64,000 nt of DNA, from assembly GCF_041053055.1 (NCBI RefSeq), contig NZ_CP163443.1:6121001-6185000 (forward strand). Reading direction: 5' to 3'. A program made the translations under genes and the position numbers. The first letter of the stretch is position 1; the number at the start of each line of letters is the position of its first letter. Source of the DNA: Streptomyces sp. R41 (GTDB lineage Bacteria; Actinomycetota; Actinomycetes; Streptomycetales; Streptomycetaceae). The notes below the pieces were generated by a model. The model saw only the letters and a program-made list of their open reading frames with translations. It did not search any database and had not been told where the DNA came from. Positions 50,256 through 57,385 of this stretch are shown piece by piece.

Positions 50256-53009
50256 TCACAACGCCCGTGACGCATATGCCCTGACGTCCGCGTCGGGGTC
50301 CGTCACCGCCGTGGCGAGGGCGGCGCGGGCTTCGGCGACATCGGCATGGCGGACCAGCGCCAGCACCGCAGCCTTGCGGACGTCGGCGTTCGGGTCGCCC
50401 AGAGCCTTGGCCAGGGCGGGGACGGCCACGTCGGTATCCGCGCCGGACAGCGCGGTGGCGGCGCCGGCCCGGACCTGCCAGGCGGCGTCGGCCTGGGCGG
50501 CGACGGCGCGCGCGGCGAGCGGCGCCGGGCACCCCGTGGCCGCCAGCGTCTCGAAAGCCGCCGCGCGGACCAGGGCGTCGGGGTCCTCGGAGAGCCGATC
50601 GAGGGTGTGCTCGACCGGCCTCCCCGGGGTCACGTTGGCCAGGGCCTTGGCCACGGTGACGCGGACCTCGCGGGAAGGGTCTGCCGCCGCCCGGGCCAGG
50701 GGCTCCGCGGCGTCGATCGAGACGAGGGCGCGTACGGCCTCGATCCGGACGGCGGTGGCGGGATCGGCGAGGGCGTCCGCGAACAGCGCCGCGTCACCGA
50801 GGCGCAGCGCCCGCAGGACGTCCAGGGAGGCGGCGCGTACGACGGGATCGTCCTCGGCGAGGGCGGAGGCGAGACCGTCGCGCAGGTCTGGCTCGGGCGG
50901 CAGCGTCTCGACCAGCTCGCGCAGCGAGGCCGCGGCGGCGGCCCGTACATCGCCGTGCGGGTCGCGGAGCGCGGTGGCCAGGGCGGGGCCGGTACCGGGC
51001 GGCACGGTCTCGGTGAGTACGGCGACGGTCGCCCGCCGGACGGCAGGGGAGGGATCGCTCAAGTAGGGCCGCAGGGTGGAGAGGTCGGGCTCCTCTTCGG
51101 AGAGGGCGAGGAGTTCCAGCAGGCGCGGTGTGGAGTCGTCATCCGCGTCCGGGTGATTGCTGGTGCCGGCGTCGGGGATGTCGGTGACCGCCGACGGCGA
51201 GGCCACCGGTGCCGCATCACGGGCACCCGCCGTGGCCACGCCCTCCGGGTGGACCTCGCCGAGGTGCCGGGAGGGGCCGCCGGTGGGGGTGAAATCGGGG
51301 ACGGGGACCAGATAGGGGGCCACGGGTCGGGCCGTGAACTCCATCGAGCCGGAGGGGGACTTGTGCAGGTCGAGGTGGTGGAACCAAGAGGCGTCGTCGC
51401 GCGCGGGATGGTCCGTGCGGTCGTGGTACAGGCCCCAGCGGGACTCCGTGCGGGCCAGCGAGGCGCGCGCGGCCATCTCCGCGCAGTCGCGGATGAAGGT
51501 GACCTCGGCGCACCGCATCAGCTCATGGGGCGTGCGGGCACCCATCTCCGCGATGTCCTTACGCATCCGCTCGAACGCTTCCAGGGCGAGCGACAGCCGG
51601 GCGCCGGACTTCGGCGGTGCCACGTAGTCGTTCACGAAGCGGCGGAGTTTGTATTCGACCTGGGGTTGAGGCGGGCCGTCCGGGCTGCGCAGCGGGCGGT
51701 AGATCAGTTCGTGCGCGTCGCGGAGTTGGTCCTGCGGCAACTCGCCCTCGTAGGGCTTGTACTGGGCCGCGTCGGCGCCCGCGAGGTCGCCGAAGACGAA
51801 GGCGCCGATCATGTAGTTGTGGGGGACGCAGGCCAGGTCTCCAGCGGCGTACAGGCGCGGCACGGTCGTACGGGCGTGGTCGTCGACCCGTACGCCGGAA
51901 GCGGAGTGGCCGCCGCACAGGCCGATCTCGGAGATGTGCATCTCGATGTCGTGGGTGCGGTAGTCGTGGCCGCGGCCGGCGTGGAAGGTGCCGCGGGTGG
52001 GGCGTTCCGTGGTGTGCAGGATGGATTCGAGGGCGCTGATCGACTCCTCGGGGAGGTGGCTCAGTTTGAGGTACACCGGGCCCCGGTCCGAGGCGACCTC
52101 CGCGGCGAACTCCGCCATCATCTGGCCGGACCAGTAGTCGGAGTCGACGAAGCGCTCGCCGTGCCGGTTGACCTGGTAGCCGCCGAAGGGGTTGGCGACG
52201 TAGGCGCAGGCGGGGCCGTTGTAGTCCTTGATCAGCGGGTTGATCTGGAAGCACTCGATGCCGCTGAGCTCGGCGCCGGCGTGGTAGGCCATGGCGTAGC
52301 CGTCACCGGCGTTGGTGGGGTTCTCGTACGTTCCGTAGAGGTAGCCGGAGGCGGGCAGGCCGAGGCGGCCGCAGGCGCCGGTGGCGAGGATGACGGCACC
52401 GGCGCGGACCGAGACGAAGCCGCCCGTGCGGGTGTTGAAGCCCGCCGCCCCGACCGCGCGGCCCTCCGCCGTGAGGACCCGCACCGGCATCACGCGGTTC
52501 TCGATCCGGATCCGCTCACGCGTCTCGCGGCGCCGCAGCTGCCGGTAGAGGACCTTCTTGACGTCCTTGCCCTCGGGCATCGGCAGCACGTACGAGCCGG
52601 ACCGGTGCACCTGGCGGACCGCGTACTCGCCGTGCTCGTCCTTCTCGAACTTCACGCCGTACGACTCCAGGCGCTGCACCATGGCGAAGCCGCGGGTCGC
52701 GGTCTGGCGGACGGTGGACTGGTCGACGATGCCGTCGTTGGCGCGGGTGATCTCGGCGACGTAGTCGTCGGGTTCGGCGCGGCCGGGGATGACCGCGTTG
52801 TTGACGCCGTCCATGCCCATGGCGAGGGCGCCGGAGTGGCGGACGTGCGCCTTCTCCAGGAGGAGGACGTCGGCCCCATGCTCGGCGGCGGTGAGGGCCG
52901 CCATGGTGCCGGCCGTGCCGCCACCGATGACGAGGACGTCACAGGTGAGTTCCTCGGCGTCCGCGAGGGCGGGGATCTCCATACGGGTGTCCGCGCGGGT
53001 GGTGTCCAC
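50256..53009 (-). CDS. AprA-like FAD oxidoreductase fused to HEAT repeats
   Basis: A 917-residue protein. Residues 1-580 belong to the fumarate reductase/succinate dehydrogenase flavoprotein superfamily. The FAD motif is VIGGGTAG (27-34), and the following KAHVRHSGALAMGMDGVN fits the adenylylsulfate reductase alpha (AprA) branch (K-x-x-x-x-x-SGA-x-A-x-G) better than FrdA/SdhA. IGAFVFGDLAG is near the second FAD contact. After a Pro/Ser/Asp linker, about 625-917 are eight or nine PBS-lyase-type HEAT repeats (DPSPAVRRATVAVL, DPHGDVRAAAAASL, DPNADVRKAAVLAL). It is the last gene of the cluster with an AprB-like ferredoxin. A substrate cannot be named; the HEAT tail is probably a partner or docking surface. 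Confidence 0.82.
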   Translation of the reverse strand: MDTTRADTRMEIPALADAEELTCDVLVIGGGTAGTMAALTAAEHGADVLLLEKAHVRHSGALAMGMDGVNNAVIPGRAEPDDYVAEITRANDGIVDQSTVRQTATRGFAMVQRLESYGVKFEKDEHGEYAVRQVHRSGSYVLPMPEGKDVKKVLYRQLRRRETRERIRIENRVMPVRVLTAEGRAVGAAGFNTRTGGFVSVRAGAVILATGACGRLGLPASGYLYGTYENPTNAGDGYAMAYHAGAELSGIECFQINPLIKDYNGPACAYVANPFGGYQVNRHGERFVDSDYWSGQMMAEFAAEVASDRGPVYLKLSHLPEESISALESILHTTERPTRGTFHAGRGHDYRTHDIEMHISEIGLCGGHSASGVRVDDHARTTVPRLYAAGDLACVPHNYMIGAFVFGDLAGADAAQYKPYEGELPQDQLRDAHELIYRPLRSPDGPPQPQVEYKLRRFVNDYVAPPKSGARLSLALEAFERMRKDIAEMGARTPHELMRCAEVTFIRDCAEMAARASLARTESRWGLYHDRTDHPARDDASWFHHLDLHKSPSGSMEFTARPVAPYLVPVPDFTPTGGPSRHLGEVHPEGVATAGARDAAPVASPSAVTDIPDAGTSNHPDADDDSTPRLLELLALSEEEPDLSTLRPYLSDPSPAVRRATVAVLTETVPPGTGPALATALRDPHGDVRAAAAASLRELVETLPPEPDLRDGLASALAEDDPVVRAASLDVLRALRLGDAALFADALADPATAVRIEAVRALVSIDAAEPLARAAADPSREVRVTVAKALANVTPGRPVEHTLDRLSEDPDALVRAAAFETLAATGCPAPLAARAVAAQADAAWQVRAGAATALSGADTDVAVPALAKALGDPNADVRKAAVLALVRHADVAEARAALATAVTDPDADVRAYASRAL

Positions 53010-53020
53010 GGGGGTGCCTT

Positions 53021-53890
53021 TCAGGTGCTGAGGGAGGTGAGGACCTCGCGGCGCAGGGACAGCCTCGCCGGGTCGTCCAGGGCGGATCGCTCACGAGGGC
53101 GCGGGACTTCGCGTACGGCGAGTAGCCTGCCGGCGCTGTGGGAGCCGGCGCCGTCGAGCGGACGTCCGGAGCCGAGCAGGGCGACGCGGTCGCCCAGGAA
53201 CAGCGCCTCGTCCACGTCGTGCGTCACGAAGACCACCGTGGCGCCGGTTCCGTGCAACACCTCGACCAGCAGGTCCTGCATTCCGGCGCGGGTCTGGGCG
53301 TCGAGGGCGCCGAATGGTTCGTCCATGAGGACGGCGCGGGGCGCTCCGGCGAGGGCACGGGCGAGTTGGACCCGTTGGCGCTGTCCTCCGGAGACACGGT
53401 GCGGCAACTGCCGTCCGTGGCCGGCGAGTCCGACCCGGGCGAGCCAGGAGTCGGCCTGGGCGCGACGTTCGGCGCGGGACAACCCCTTGATGGCCAGCGG
53501 GAGTTCGACATTGGCGCGCAGGGTGCGCCAGGGGAGCAGGGCGTCCTCCTGGAAGACGAGCGCACGGTCGGCGGCGGGGCCCACCAGGGGGCGGCCGTCC
53601 TGGGTGACCGTTCCCGCGAGGGCGGGCAGCAGCCCGGCCAGGGTGCGCAGGAGGGTCGACTTGCCACAGCCCGAGGGGCCGACGACCGTGATGATCTCGC
53701 CGGGGGCGATGTCGAGGTCGACCCCGTCGAGGACGGGGGCACCGGGGCGGCCGAGGGAGGCGTTCACGACGGACAGGCGGGTGCCGCGCGTGGCGATGGA
53801 TGTCCCGGTCTCGGCGACGGCCGACTCCGTGCCCGCGACAGGCGGCTCCGTGCCGGCGACGGACGTCTCGGTCTCAGACGAGGTGCTCAT
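53021..53890 (-). CDS. ABC importer ATPase, nitrate/sulfonate/taurine type
   Basis: A 289-residue ATPase of the SsuB/TauB/NrtD class. Walker A is GPSGCGKS (71-78), then the Q-loop FQEDALLPWRTL, signature VSGGQRQRVQLARAL, Walker B LMDEPFGALD and VTHDVDEA. The first 33 residues are a repetitive Thr/Glu/Ala stretch (SVAGTEPPVAGTESAVAETGTS) not usual in the family. It overlaps the permease gene by 17 bases. Confidence 0.9.
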   Translation of the reverse strand: MSTSSETETSVAGTEPPVAGTESAVAETGTSIATRGTRLSVVNASLGRPGAPVLDGVDLDIAPGEIITVVGPSGCGKSTLLRTLAGLLPALAGTVTQDGRPLVGPAADRALVFQEDALLPWRTLRANVELPLAIKGLSRAERRAQADSWLARVGLAGHGRQLPHRVSGGQRQRVQLARALAGAPRAVLMDEPFGALDAQTRAGMQDLLVEVLHGTGATVVFVTHDVDEALFLGDRVALLGSGRPLDGAGSHSAGRLLAVREVPRPRERSALDDPARLSLRREVLTSLST

Positions 53891-54728
53891 CGCGCACCCC
53901 CTCAGGGCGTTCAAGCGCCGGAGTCGGGGAGACCGGCGCGGTCTTGCGGACGCGCGCGCCGGTGACGTACTCCGTGCGCGGCAGCCAGCGGGTGAGCCAC
54001 CGGCCCACGCGTTCGACCGCCGTGGACGTGAGCCAGCCGAGCACCCCGATCGTGACCATGCCCACGAAGACGCCGGGGTAGTCGACGACGGTGTAGTCCT
54101 GCCAGGTGCGGTAGCCGACGCCGTACTGGCCGGAGATCATCTCGGCGGAGATGACGCAGATCCACGAGACGCCGATGCCGACCGACAGGCCACCGAAGAT
54201 CCCGGGGAGGGCGCCCGGCAGGATCACCGAGCCGAGCACCCGCCACCGGCCGCCGCCCATGGTGCGTACCGCCTCCTCCCATACGGGGGTCAGCGCGCGC
54301 ACCGCGTGCCGGGTGGAGACCAGGACCGGGAAGAAGGCGGCGGTGCAGGTGATGAAGACGATGCCTTGTTCGTTGGAGGGGAAGAGAAGGATCGCGACGG
54401 GGACGAGGGCGATCGCCGGGATCGGGCGGACCACTTCCAGGACCGGGCCGAGCAGGTCCTCGGCGAAGCGGGAGCGCGCCACGGTCACTCCGGTGGCCAC
54501 GCCCAGGACGGCCGCCAGCAGGAAGCCGGTGAGGATCCGGGTGAGGCTGTCGGTGAGGTCCGTCCAGTAGTCGTCGCCGCCCAGCCGGTCGCCGAAGGCG
54601 CGGGCCACATCGGCGACGGTCGGGAACTGCGAGAAGCGCAGCCAGAGGTCGACGTTCAGGCTGGTCAGCAGCTGCCAGGCGGTCAGGGCCGCGGTGAGCG
54701 ACGCGGCCCTGACGAGATACCGGGTCAT
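53874..54728 (-). CDS. ABC importer permease, nitrate/sulfonate/taurine type
   Basis: A 284-residue permease with six membrane helices and the BPD-type EAA loop (EEAVRTMGGGRWRVLGSVILPGALPGI). It pairs with the ATPase (17-base overlap) and the binding protein (4-base overlap), forming one transport unit. The class usually brings in sulfonates, taurine, nitrate, bicarbonate, or pyrimidine/thiamine precursors. ATG 54728 gives the normal first helix. Confidence 0.9.
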   Translation of the reverse strand: MTRYLVRAASLTAALTAWQLLTSLNVDLWLRFSQFPTVADVARAFGDRLGGDDYWTDLTDSLTRILTGFLLAAVLGVATGVTVARSRFAEDLLGPVLEVVRPIPAIALVPVAILLFPSNEQGIVFITCTAAFFPVLVSTRHAVRALTPVWEEAVRTMGGGRWRVLGSVILPGALPGIFGGLSVGIGVSWICVISAEMISGQYGVGYRTWQDYTVVDYPGVFVGMVTIGVLGWLTSTAVERVGRWLTRWLPRTEYVTGARVRKTAPVSPTPALERPEGVRDEHLV

Positions 54729-56146
54729 GACGCGCGCTCCAGGGCGGTGGCGTACGAGATGGTGCGCGCGCCCTGGTGGTCGGCGATGTACGCCCGGGCG
54801 GTCTCCGCCGTGACGAAGGGGTGCAGGTCGTCGCCGTCGGCCACCCACACCGCCTTGTCGGCGAACCACAGGGTGCCGGTGGTGGTGTCGGGGACGTACG
54901 CGGCGCGGAGAGCGGTGCGATGCGCGGCCACGTAATGGAGAAGGGAGGCGGGGGAGTTGAAGGTACGCGTGCTGGTGGCGCCCTTGGGCCAGGCCTGGCT
55001 CGCGGCCGGTGGGGGTGTCGCGGTGAGCTGGTCGGCGTACGCGGTCGGGCCGAGGGCGCGCTTCACGTACTGGTCGTCGACGAAGGCGTCCACGTCCACG
55101 TCGCCGACGAGCTTCGCCGACTTCAGGACGGACACGTCCTTCTTCAGGGCAGAGATCAGGCTCGGTTGCAGCGCCGGGTTGAAGGTGGCGATGCCATGAG
55201 CGCCGTTGTAGAGGTAGACGACCTCGGCGGGCAGGCCGGTCGCCTTCGCGACCTTCTCCGCCGCGGCCACCGGGTGGTCGTGGAGGTAGGCCGTCGCGTC
55301 CGACTGCGCCTTCAGGAACGCCTCCAGCACGGCAGGGCGCTTCTTCGCGAAGTCCTCGCGGGCGGTGACGCCGTGGAAGGTCGGCAGGTTCAGTTCGGCG
55401 CCGTCGTACAGGGCCTTCGCTTTGCCCTGGTAGGCGAGCAGACCGGGCCATGCGACGAACTGCGAGAGCGCGTCCGTGCTGCCCGCCGCGAGGGCCGAAG
55501 CGCCCACCGCGGGCTGCTGGTTGAGCTTCTCGACGCCCTTGGCCGGGTCGATTCCGGCGCGCTGGAGGGCCCGTACGAGAGTGCCGTCGGCGGCCGAGCC
55601 GACGCTGGTCGACACCTTCTTGCCGCGCAGGTCATTCAGCGAACGGAGCTTCGAACCCGGCGCCGTGACGATGGTGTTGAGGCCCCCGCGGAGGTTGTAG
55701 CCGGTGACGGAGACCAGGTGGGTGGGGCGGCCGAGTTGTTTGCCGCGGGCCGCGTTGATGAGGAGCGGGAAGTCACCCATCGAGCCGATGTCGATCTTTC
55801 CGGCGGTCATCTGGGCGGTGATCGGGGCGCCGGTCGCGTAGTCCTGCCAGTTCACCTTGTAGGTGGTGCCGTCTCCGAGGGCGTTCAGCTCCTTTTCGAA
55901 GGAGCCGAGCGAGCGGAGGAGGGTGCCTGCTGTGACCGTGTTGATCGTTTTGGACTGGTAGCCGATCGTGACGGTGACCGTGGAGCCGTCGCCGGGACCG
56001 GTGTCGGTGCCGCAGGCGGTGAGGGGGAGTGCGAGGGCGGTCGTGACGAGGGCGGCGAGTGCTTTGCTCTTTGCGCCGTGCTTGGCCCCGCGCATGTCCT
56101 TGTGCGCGGCTCCGTGTTTCGCCTTGCGTATTGCCTTGTGTTTCAT
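54725..56146 (-). CDS. ABC importer substrate-binding lipoprotein
   Basis: A 473-residue lipoprotein, longer than the usual 320-350 of this class. The first 28 residues are an unusual Lys/His/Ala repeat (KHKAIRKAKHGAAHKDMRGAKHG), then the lipobox LTAC with Cys45. The binding domain has VTIGYQSKTINTVTAGTLLRSLG, GKIDIGSMGDFPLL and SVGSAADGTLVRALQRAG, typical of SsuA/TauA/NMT1-like proteins. An extra C-terminal domain of about 100 residues with TTGTLWFADKAVWVAD is present. It is the capturing part of the importer. Confidence 0.88.
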   Translation of the reverse strand: MKHKAIRKAKHGAAHKDMRGAKHGAKSKALAALVTTALALPLTACGTDTGPGDGSTVTVTIGYQSKTINTVTAGTLLRSLGSFEKELNALGDGTTYKVNWQDYATGAPITAQMTAGKIDIGSMGDFPLLINAARGKQLGRPTHLVSVTGYNLRGGLNTIVTAPGSKLRSLNDLRGKKVSTSVGSAADGTLVRALQRAGIDPAKGVEKLNQQPAVGASALAAGSTDALSQFVAWPGLLAYQGKAKALYDGAELNLPTFHGVTAREDFAKKRPAVLEAFLKAQSDATAYLHDHPVAAAEKVAKATGLPAEVVYLYNGAHGIATFNPALQPSLISALKKDVSVLKSAKLVGDVDVDAFVDDQYVKRALGPTAYADQLTATPPPAASQAWPKGATSTRTFNSPASLLHYVAAHRTALRAAYVPDTTTGTLWFADKAVWVADGDDLHPFVTAETARAYIADHQGARTISYATALERAS

Positions 56147-56161
56147 GGGAGTTCGGGCCTC

Positions 56162-56389
56162 TCACCGGAGCAGATAGGGCATGTTGACCGTGACGGCTCC
56201 GGTGGGACAGCGGGCCGCGCACGGGCCGCAGTACCAGCACTCGTCGACGTGCATGTACGCCTTGCCGTTGCTCTCGTCGATGGCGAGGGAGTCCAGCGGG
56301 CACATGTCCACGCAGAGGGTGCAGCCGTCGATGCACTTCGACTCGTCGATGGTCACGGGCACGTCGGCCCGCTGGGGCGCCAAGGGCAT
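56162..56389 (-). CDS. AprB-like two-cluster ferredoxin
   Basis: A 75-residue protein with two [4Fe-4S] sites: CIDGCTLCVDMCP and CWYCGPCAARCP. The second, with CW-x-C-x-x-C and the Lys-Ala-Tyr stretch before it, resembles the beta subunit of adenylylsulfate reductase (AprB), though without the long AprB tail. It is a natural electron partner for the AprA-like flavoprotein of the same cluster. It lies 15 bases before the binding-protein gene. Confidence 0.85.
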   Translation of the reverse strand: MPLAPQRADVPVTIDESKCIDGCTLCVDMCPLDSLAIDESNGKAYMHVDECWYCGPCAARCPTGAVTVNMPYLLR

Positions 56390-56426
56390 GGCTGTCTCCA
56401 GGGAGGTCCTGCGGGAAGGGCGGGTC

Positions 56427-56486
56427 GGGAGGAGTGGGCTCGGGAGGAGTGGGCTCGGGCTGGGTGGGCTCGGGCTGGGTGGGGTC
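56427..56486. repeat. Four tandem 15-bp units
   Basis: GGGAGGAGTGGGCTC occurs twice (56427, 56442), then GGGCTGGGTGGGCTC (56457) and a variant (56472). The array lies between the GntR-type gene and the ferredoxin and touches the 3' end of the former. Confidence 0.7.
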
Positions 56487-57264
56487 AGCGCGCGCGGCGG
56501 AGTCGGCCGCTCATCGTGATGCGGTCGCCGCGGAAGCGGATGAACTCCAGGTCGACGGGGCGGCCGTCGGCGAGATGCGTGAGGCGTTCCAGCATGAGCA
56601 CGGCGGTGCCGCGCGGGGCCTGCAGTACGGCGGCCGAGTGGGCGTCGGCGTTGACCGCCTCCAGGGTGATGTCGGCGTGCCCGAGGGGCTGCCCCGTGAC
56701 AGCTTCCAGGAGCCGGAAGACGTCGGTGTTCTCCAGGTCGGCGCCGAGCAGGGCGGTGCCGAGGTCGAGCGGGATGTAGGTGAGGTCGAGGGAGAGGGGG
56801 AGGCCGTCGAGGCGGCGGAGGCGTTCGATGTAGAGCACGTCGGCGCCGGGGGCGATGTGGAGGCGGTCGGCCACCGGGGCGGGTGCGGCGACGGGGCCGA
56901 CGGTGCGGACTTCGTTGGTGACCTGGCCGTGTTCGCGCAGGGTCTCCGCGAGTCCCATCAGCCGGTCGAGCCCGTGGGGGTACTTCTGGGCGACGACGAC
57001 CGTGCCGACGCCGGGGAGGCGTTCCACCAAGCCCTCCGCGCGGAGCAGGTCGAGGGCCTGGCGGACGGTGTTGCGGGAGGCGCGGTAGTCGGTGCCGAGG
57101 GTGGTCTCGTGCGGGAGGGAGCCGTTCGGGTAGCCGCCGGTCAGGATCTGGTGGCGGAGCAGGTCGGCGAGTTGGCGGGCCTGGTCCGCGCGCAGCCGGC
57201 GCCGGTGGGCGGCGACGGTGGTCGCGCCCTGGCCGGCGTGGTCTCGGATGCGGTCGGTGGGCAT
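56485..57264 (-). CDS. GntR/HutC-type regulator with UTRA domain
   Basis: A 259-residue repressor-type protein. The winged helix (about 28-95) has QARQLADLLRHQILTGGYPNGSLPHE, SRNTVRQALDLLRAEGLVERLPGVGTVV. The UTRA effector domain follows, with LYIERLRRLDGLPLSLDLTYIPLDL and LMLERLTHLADGRPVDLEFIRFRGDR. It should control the downstream ferredoxin, importer and flavoprotein genes in response to a small molecule, perhaps the transported one. ATG 57264 is used. TATCGT shortly upstream could be a -10 box of a leaderless message. Confidence 0.88.
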   Translation of the reverse strand: MPTDRIRDHAGQGATTVAAHRRRLRADQARQLADLLRHQILTGGYPNGSLPHETTLGTDYRASRNTVRQALDLLRAEGLVERLPGVGTVVVAQKYPHGLDRLMGLAETLREHGQVTNEVRTVGPVAAPAPVADRLHIAPGADVLYIERLRRLDGLPLSLDLTYIPLDLGTALLGADLENTDVFRLLEAVTGQPLGHADITLEAVNADAHSAAVLQAPRGTAVLMLERLTHLADGRPVDLEFIRFRGDRITMSGRLRRAR

Positions 57265-57385
57265 GCGTCGGACGATACCGACGGGGGGTGGGGCGTGGTG
57301 TTGCCGGAGTGTTGCGCCACTCCCTGCCGCCCGGGAAGCCTCGCTGACCTGGGGTTTCGTGTATCCGTGGGCAAGATCTGCCACC

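Follow-up and report, generated by a model that had tools for sequence, protein, structure and literature searches.

On what compound would a redox pair resembling adenylylsulfate reductase act when its genes are joined to those of an ABC importer? The question is raised by a six-gene unit on the minus strand (57264–50256) of a 64,000-nucleotide stretch from Streptomyces sp. R41 (assembly GCF_041053055.1, contig NZ_CP163443.1, positions 6,121,001 to 6,185,000), hereafter the window, in a genome of 10.46 Mb (G000). The unit encodes, in order, a GntR/UTRA regulator, a ferredoxin, a substrate-binding protein (SBP), a permease, an ATPase and a flavoprotein fused to HEAT repeats. Because relatives of its importer stand beside an ordinary sulfatase at other loci, we propose, with a probability we place somewhat short of even, that this is a sulfur-scavenging unit whose importer would take up a sulfate ester or similar compound and whose redox pair would cleave it reductively to sulfite. 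Its parts are the following.

56485..57264, minus strand: GntR/UTRA regulator, 259 amino acids (Pfam GntR, 53.7 bits; UTRA, 124.2 bits), with an ATG start at 57264
56162..56389, minus strand: AprB-like two-[4Fe-4S] ferredoxin, 75 amino acids, without the AprB tail (Cys/Trp conservation, structure-sequence matches)
54725..56146, minus strand: substrate-binding lipoprotein, 473 amino acids, NMT1-type with SsuA/TauA fold and a lipobox-like Cys45 (by eye)
54728..55063, minus strand: C-terminal extension of the SBP, approximately residues 362–473, NosL-like in some relatives
53874..54728, minus strand: ABC permease (BPD_transp_1, 72.5 bits)
about 53021..53890, minus strand: ABC ATPase (ABC_tran, 103.4 bits)
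50256..53009, minus strand: whole flavoprotein gene (Pfam FAD_binding_2 with Succ_DH_flav_C, and HEAT_2)
51285..53009, minus strand: AprA-like domain binding flavin adenine dinucleotide (FAD), residues 1–575, nearest among solved chains to MtPAPSR alpha (8a8o_A)
50256..51134, minus strand: HEAT-repeat domain fused to the flavoprotein, approximately residues 626–917 (HEAT_2, 100 bits)

The original prediction described five co-directional genes behind a GntR/UTRA gene, a shortened AprB-like ferredoxin and no cysH beside the unit. All six genes were located, between a RecQ-like helicase gene (recognized by eye) and a fumarylacetoacetase gene; the ferredoxin has 75 residues and no AprB tail; and the window genome carries its NIR_SIR-family (sulfite reductase) and PAPS_reduct-family (CysH/CysD) genes elsewhere, those nearest on one side of the unit being 1.7–1.95 Mb away. 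The permease ATG overlaps the SBP stop codon and the permease and ATPase genes also overlap, so that co-translation of these genes is probable. For the regulator, a longer form starting at a GTG at 57384 is possible. HEAT repeats, which the original prediction had not noted, make up the last ~290 residues of the flavoprotein; AlphaFold2 (AF2) predicts them as a helical repeat at high confidence, and they may serve as a scaffold or lid. The regions upstream of the GntR genes of related loci have 9-mers in common, GTGGCGCAA occurring in 54/76 of them. By eye, imperfect C-rich direct repeats can be recognized in the gap between the regulator and ferredoxin genes (56484–56390).

Among solved structures, the flavoprotein is closest to the alpha chain of MtPAPSR, the 3'-phosphoadenylylsulfate (PAPS) reductase of Methanothermococcus thermolithotrophicus (8a8o_A, E 4e-54), then to AprA of adenylylsulfate (APS) reductase (2fja, E 6e-28), and after these to SdhA and aspartate oxidase. 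The ferredoxin finds its best matches among polyferredoxins and weaker ones in AprB (3gyx_B, 1jnr_B) and MtPAPSR beta (8a8o_C). Each of its eight cysteines is at least 99% conserved, and W52, present in 143/143 sequences, occupies the position of AprB Trp-B48 and MtPAPSR Trp42; the protein thus has the two-[4Fe-4S] ferredoxin-like segment with a bridging tryptophan that characterizes the AprAB beta subunit. Neither partner reaches the corresponding model cut-off, with 122 bits against 641.75 for aprA and 36.3 against 135.65 for aprB, and the window ferredoxin is the single match of the aprB model in the genome at E <= 1e-3.

Two alignments were used to compare the active site, one placing 97 family members beside 8a8o, 2fja, 3gyx, an Ilyobacter sequence and the SdhA and NadB of the window genome, the other comprising 146 family members. 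According to PMC2211403 and PMC10322725, the sulfate contacts of AprA are N74, H398, R265 and W234, the asparagine and histidine touching sulfate oxygens, and Arg317 clamps the adenine. The equivalents of Asn74 (N70), His398 (H368) and His446 (H397) are invariant in 146/146 flavoproteins, whereas Arg265 has become Leu259 and Trp234 has become Tyr228, again in 146/146. The Arg317 column is a gap in 97/97 within a stretch that aligns poorly, an arginine lying near it at position 296 of the window protein in 4/146 and at position 303 in 24/146. Ser122 of the MtPAPSR PAPS loop (Gln145 in AprA), the one loop position compared, is valine in 97/97. By these comparisons, two of the four residues that contact sulfate are kept, as is the electron path through the ferredoxin tryptophan, and the nucleotide site is altered. 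On sequence grounds the enzyme pair is nearest to the APS/PAPS reductases, yet it appears to be no APS reductase and no ordinary fumarate reductase either.

In an unrooted tree, a branch (90/98) separates the flavoprotein family from both Apr/PAPSR and Sdh/Nad. When another flavoprotein of the window genome serves as root, the family joins Apr (92/91), its joining to Sdh/Nad having an approximately unbiased test value (p-AU) of 0.049; in a thinned set lacking NadB, the third SdhA and 3gyx, the corresponding values are 85/81 and 0.166. As long branches meet in these trees, an Apr-side origin is suggested by the sequences as a lean and not as proof. The earlier assignment to the AprA branch is therefore likely, the Apr side being favoured by the rooted trees, if less so in the thinned set; a place within ordinary fumarate reductases, by which that assignment was to be judged, did not emerge, the flavoproteins falling outside the SdhA/NadB references.

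Conservation of the gene set was examined in the best 80 actinobacterial loci from one genome_contigs scan with the flavoprotein, a set that holds the closest relatives only, and linkage was scored within 9 kb of that gene. The ATPase was present in 80/80 loci, the permease in 78/80, the ferredoxin and the SBP in 77/80 each and the GntR gene in 76/80; three incomplete loci lie at contig ends (L062, L064, L081) and another, L071, lacks the GntR gene. Gene order recurs across these loci, and the expectation that importer and redox pair travel together is borne out by this near-complete set. The flavoprotein itself occurs in 8/296 genomes of a phylum-wide draw (E <= 1e-100, window genome counted), which marks it as an accessory gene. 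In four actinobacterial loci (L151, L154, L155, L161) the flavoprotein is unfused, a HEAT reading frame lies close by and the gene order differs, possibly an older form.

Outside the actinobacteria, linkage rests on 20 plasmid records whose flavoprotein and surroundings were examined, out of 54 matching records, many of them from related rhizobia, burkholderia and Pseudanabaena; a good part of the 54 have no annotated feature under the match. The 20 loci belong to Nostoc, Pseudanabaena, Leptolyngbya, rhizobia, Bradyrhizobium, Methylobacterium, Methylocystis, Cupriavidus, Paraburkholderia, Aquabacterium, Acidithiobacillus, Acinetobacter and Tsukamurella, so that the gene set spans the sampled actinobacteria, proteobacteria and cyanobacteria. 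All 20 have the ferredoxin; 19 have a HEAT gene of its own and one has it fused to the flavoprotein, and permease and ATPase genes lie nearby in 19. An SBP gene is near in 18/20, that of Acidithiobacillus caldus lying ~11 kb off and Nostoc having an SsuA-type SBP instead, which was excluded from the count. A GntR gene adjoins seven loci, excluding an unrelated one 7.7 kb away in L112, and of the remaining 13, 11 have a Crp/Fnr or LysR gene. In 15/20 the annotation includes a plausible Fe-S helper, either a DUF971 (gamma-butyrobetaine-hydroxylase-like) or an Mrp/NBP35 gene. Two irregular copies were also seen: in A. caldus SM-1 (L108) a flavoprotein copy matches query residues 20–158 only and is adjoined by an ISL3-type transposase, and in Mesorhizobium AR07 (L095) the HEAT gene is annotated as two pieces.

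The importer offers a further clue. A plasmid search with the SBP led mostly to the same records. It also recovered remoter SBPs, taurine-type in Shinella and others, and one full-length SBP each in Gordonia amicalis (L106) and Paraburkholderia (L107), on records without a flavoprotein match. There, homologues of the GntR regulator, SBP, permease and ATPase accompany an arylsulfatase, a formylglycine-generating enzyme (FGE) and a SulP transporter, and neither flavoprotein nor ferredoxin was found at E <= 1e-3. The same cassette recurs at three actinobacterial loci (L156, L158, L159), making five in all. The two plasmid arylsulfatases are 70% identical, carry the motif C-T-P-T-R and start without an evident signal peptide (by eye), and should thus act inside the cell. 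The Gordonia SulP gene is unannotated and may be broken, since tblastn recovers it in three pieces. A Mycobacterium adipatum plasmid also carries sulfatase, FGE, GntR and SulP genes, and short SBP and permease remnants lie between its DUF202 genes and SulP (L163, 11496–11845). Elsewhere, an ssu-type operon of Synechococcus includes a more distant arylsulfatase, and Cupriavidus has an arylsulfatase with FGE.

In a class-wide draw, an SBP match at E <= 1e-30 was present in 48/394 genomes, and all such matches outside the window genome amount to 50 loci. Flavoprotein genes accompany 45 of these and sulfatase, FGE and SulP genes three; the remaining two are the other half of a flavoprotein locus split over two contigs (L162) and a locus with neither enzyme (L157). 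In a tree of 42 SBP family members chosen for spread, LysR fusion included, with one SsuA outgroup, the sulfatase-linked sequences fall at two places, among the actinobacteria and beside a Methylobacterium radiotolerans flavoprotein locus. A single sulfatase-linked clade, a group named after the BLAST results, was rejected (p-AU 2.9e-10, at a cost of 263 log units), and a GntR tree with the unrelated L112 GntR as outgroup shows the same two places.

We therefore propose reductive release of sulfur from imported sulfate esters, along the following route. Under GntR/UTRA control, the SsuA-type ABC importer would bring in an oxidised-sulfur organic compound, most likely R-O-SO3-. In the cytoplasm, the AprB-like ferredoxin would pass two electrons through the conserved tryptophan to the FAD of the AprA-like subunit, whose reduced flavin N5 would attack the sulfur, as has been proposed for APS/PAPS reductases; the organic part would leave as ROH, and sulfite would be released to an ordinary assimilatory sulfite reductase. 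The enzyme would then be APS-reductase-like, working on a non-nucleotide substrate. The more specific claim, a reductive sulfatase of aerobes that splits the S-O bond by AprA-type flavin chemistry without O2 as co-substrate, yields sulfite directly and spares the ATP of activation, we regard as possible at somewhat lower confidence. The reduction potential is about -516 mV for sulfate/sulfite and about -60 mV for APS. As the sulfate group of an aryl sulfate is fairly high in transfer energy, its potential would lie between the two, and it could be reducible by ferredoxin.

Genes in the flanks are in part consistent with sulfite as the product. TauE/SafE-type genes, of the sulfite-exporter type, occur in 5/20 flavoprotein plasmid loci, three of which also have a YeiH-type gene; passages in PMC12880088 describe YeiH as the main sulfite-resistance factor in Salmonella. 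A gene of the broader TSUP family 6.6 kb upstream in Acinetobacter was excluded from the five. An organosulfur or sulfite gene of some kind lies in the flanks of 10/20 loci. A small control, 150 kb of sequence drawn from three of these plasmid records and judged by annotation, contained no TauE/YeiH gene, one LLM oxidoreductase and one sulfotransferase-cysD-cysN set among nod genes. Of the best 80 actinobacterial loci, one has a YeiH-type, two a TauD-type, nine an LLM-type and seven an NtaA-type match; of the 50 SBP loci, three, four, six and two do, respectively.

Several observations weigh against the proposed cleavage of sulfate esters. Two of the four AprA sulfate contacts are altered, as set out above. 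The enzyme is rigidly conserved, with 195/575 positions identical in at least 145/146 sequences, while the SBPs diverge to ~33% identity, a pattern more in keeping with one fixed substrate than with sulfate esters broadly. Both kinds of cassette are held by genomes G050 and G419, so that their substrates may differ, and both also turn up among the plasmid records of Paraburkholderia largidicola. Most plasmid loci lack exporter genes, and of those that have them two are from sister Pseudanabaena strains; the actinobacterial flank matches are scattered and come without a chance control. In L157 (G408:C6:1-14532) an importer relative adjoins an apparent alpha-galactosidase and galactokinase (by eye). 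The family node in the rooted trees is at 69/98 and 59/95, the bootstrap values of 69 and 59 being weak, and Apr-side rooting is less favoured after thinning. The AF2 model of the whole flavoprotein has a mean predicted local distance difference test score of 68.3, its catalytic domain being poorly modelled and too weak for docking.

The best-surviving alternative keeps the scavenging role and makes the substrate a sulfonate (C-S) or sulfamate, from whose carbon or nitrogen sulfite would be removed, perhaps after activation; we consider it unlikely. It gains from the importer, as SBP, permease and ATPase are nearest to taurine, alkanesulfonate and nitrate types. The SBP scores 140.3 and 81.6 bits against the SsuA and TauA cut-offs of 163.5 and 304.25, the permease stays below those of SaoP, NtrB, TauC and SsuC, and the best ATPase matches, also below cut-off, are taurine/nitrate-type models. 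In a fold search the AF2 model of the SBP has an SsuA/TauA-like fold, the C-terminal part being barely covered. Five plasmid loci, other than those with exporter genes, moreover adjoin TauD, sulfonate SBP, LLM monooxygenase or related genes. Set against this, sulfatases act on S-O esters, and it is a sulfatase that the sister cassettes carry as their alternative enzyme; N5 attack expelling a carbanion from an unactivated sulfonate is chemically unlikely on general grounds.

The C-terminal extension of the SBP is confidently folded in the AF2 model and contains two cysteines in 44/143 members. Of six SBPs scanned with Pfam NosL (PF05573, cut-off 24), that of Pseudanabaena (L097, 1987–3453) scored 24.1 bits, two others stayed below cut-off at 19.6 and 14.9 bits, and the window SBP gave no match. 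A PDB sequence search with the C-terminus of a relative returned a single weak match (E 0.0098) that was set aside. Three cyanobacterial loci (L097, 6673–8673, minus strand; L098; L109) encode a LysR regulator in fusion with an SBP domain of this family that lacks the extension, the binding domain of the importer apparently serving as a sensor.

A fumarate-reductase-like enzyme, reducing or dehydrogenating a C-C bond of an imported organic acid with the sulfur links incidental, is quite improbable in our estimate. The fold superfamily and the Pfam domains FAD_binding_2 and Succ_DH_flav_C are those such an enzyme would have, and joining to SdhA survives in the thinned taxon set. The HPT and RD motifs are catalytic in SdhA/NadB. 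They are absent from the flavoproteins, where QINP and YWSGQMM stand in their place; the FrdA, SdhA and NadB cut-offs, like that of AprA, are widely missed among the 25 models listed; and the partner ferredoxin is AprB-like and has the electron-transfer tryptophan of Apr. An ordinary fumarate reductase is rejected on motifs and cut-offs, the tree being suggestive.

Very improbable, in our judgement, is a unit that imports a cofactor-like or metabolite precursor of the thiamin type and modifies it by reduction, unconnected with sulfur supply, although the NMT1/Thi5-type fold of the SBP and the rigid conservation of the enzyme would suit it and two Rhizobium loci adjoin thiC, thiO, thiS and thiazole synthase genes. 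Least credible is that the pair is an APS or PAPS reductase proper, or an APS reductase running in reverse and oxidising sulfite with AMP. The closest solved relatives and the beta-subunit relation speak for this reading, but it is rejected on the changes at R265, R317 and W234 and on the missed aprA/aprB cut-offs, and is further disfavoured because APS needs no importer, the genome has CysH/CysD-family genes and no qmo, sat or cysC is annotated in the 20 plasmid loci, whereas Ilyobacter has cysC and cysD. The Ilyobacter plasmid (L105, 5303–10634), typed as conjugative, carries a row of cysC, a PAPSR-like alpha gene, a ferredoxin gene, cysD and a gene for a GTP-binding protein, apparently a bacterial assimilatory cluster of the PAPSR type.

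The proposed sulfate-ester route would have consequences for annotation and for sulfur metabolism. The flavoprotein, annotated as a fumarate reductase, is found in bacteria of three phyla that live in soil, in water or with plants, and also in certain clinical Acinetobacter records; if the proposal is true, this annotation is mistaken, a reductive route from soil sulfate esters to sulfite has gone unrecognised, and the reaction is new and acquires sulfur while bypassing APS. The original prediction of a different reaction on an imported sulfur compound gains support from the altered pocket and the sulfatase-linked sister importers, and the natural exchange with a sulfatase cassette supplies a concrete substrate hypothesis. 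Its suggestion of an undescribed system stands in part: no paper on a member of the family was found in the open-licence PMC literature, although a description elsewhere may exist, and the main text of PMC8557817 lacks the words 'fumarate', 'flavoprotein' and 'succinate dehydrogenase'; the protein family, however, already has a name, though no explanation, in NCBIfam. The whole flavoprotein passes NF010374/PRK13800 (1670.2 bits, cut-off 1196) and also NF006131 (PRK08275), which carry only the name fumarate reductase/succinate dehydrogenase flavoprotein subunit.

The unit can thus be set beside five known systems. By score the flavoprotein is a full member of the NF010374 and NF006131 families, whose name is silent on ferredoxin, importer and sulfur. 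Compared with SsuABC and TauABC, the importer proteins fall below the family cut-offs, the SBP has an additional C-terminal domain, and the linked enzyme is neither SsuD nor TauD. With AprAB (2fja, 3gyx), as described in part in PMC2211403, the window pair shares the fold family, the ferredoxin partner and the equivalents of N74, H398 and H446, but it lacks R265, R317, W234 and the beta tail, and no sat or qmo is annotated in the 20 plasmid loci. MtPAPSR (8a8o), according to sections of PMC10322725, likewise combines an FAD-containing alpha subunit with a small two-[4Fe-4S] beta subunit bearing a bridging tryptophan, has the same sulfonyl-site asparagine and histidine, and is encoded by genes that co-occur with sulfate-activation genes; the window pair differs in the R265 and W234 equivalents, in its importer linkage and in its HEAT partner. 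A reductive sulfatase, if real, would differ in kind from the hydrolytic, oxidative and zinc sulfatases. In the five sulfatase cassettes (L106, L107, L156, L158, L159), the regulator, the three importer genes and the SBP C-terminal extension are homologous to those of the window, and a formylglycine-type sulfatase stands where the window unit has its flavoprotein and ferredoxin.

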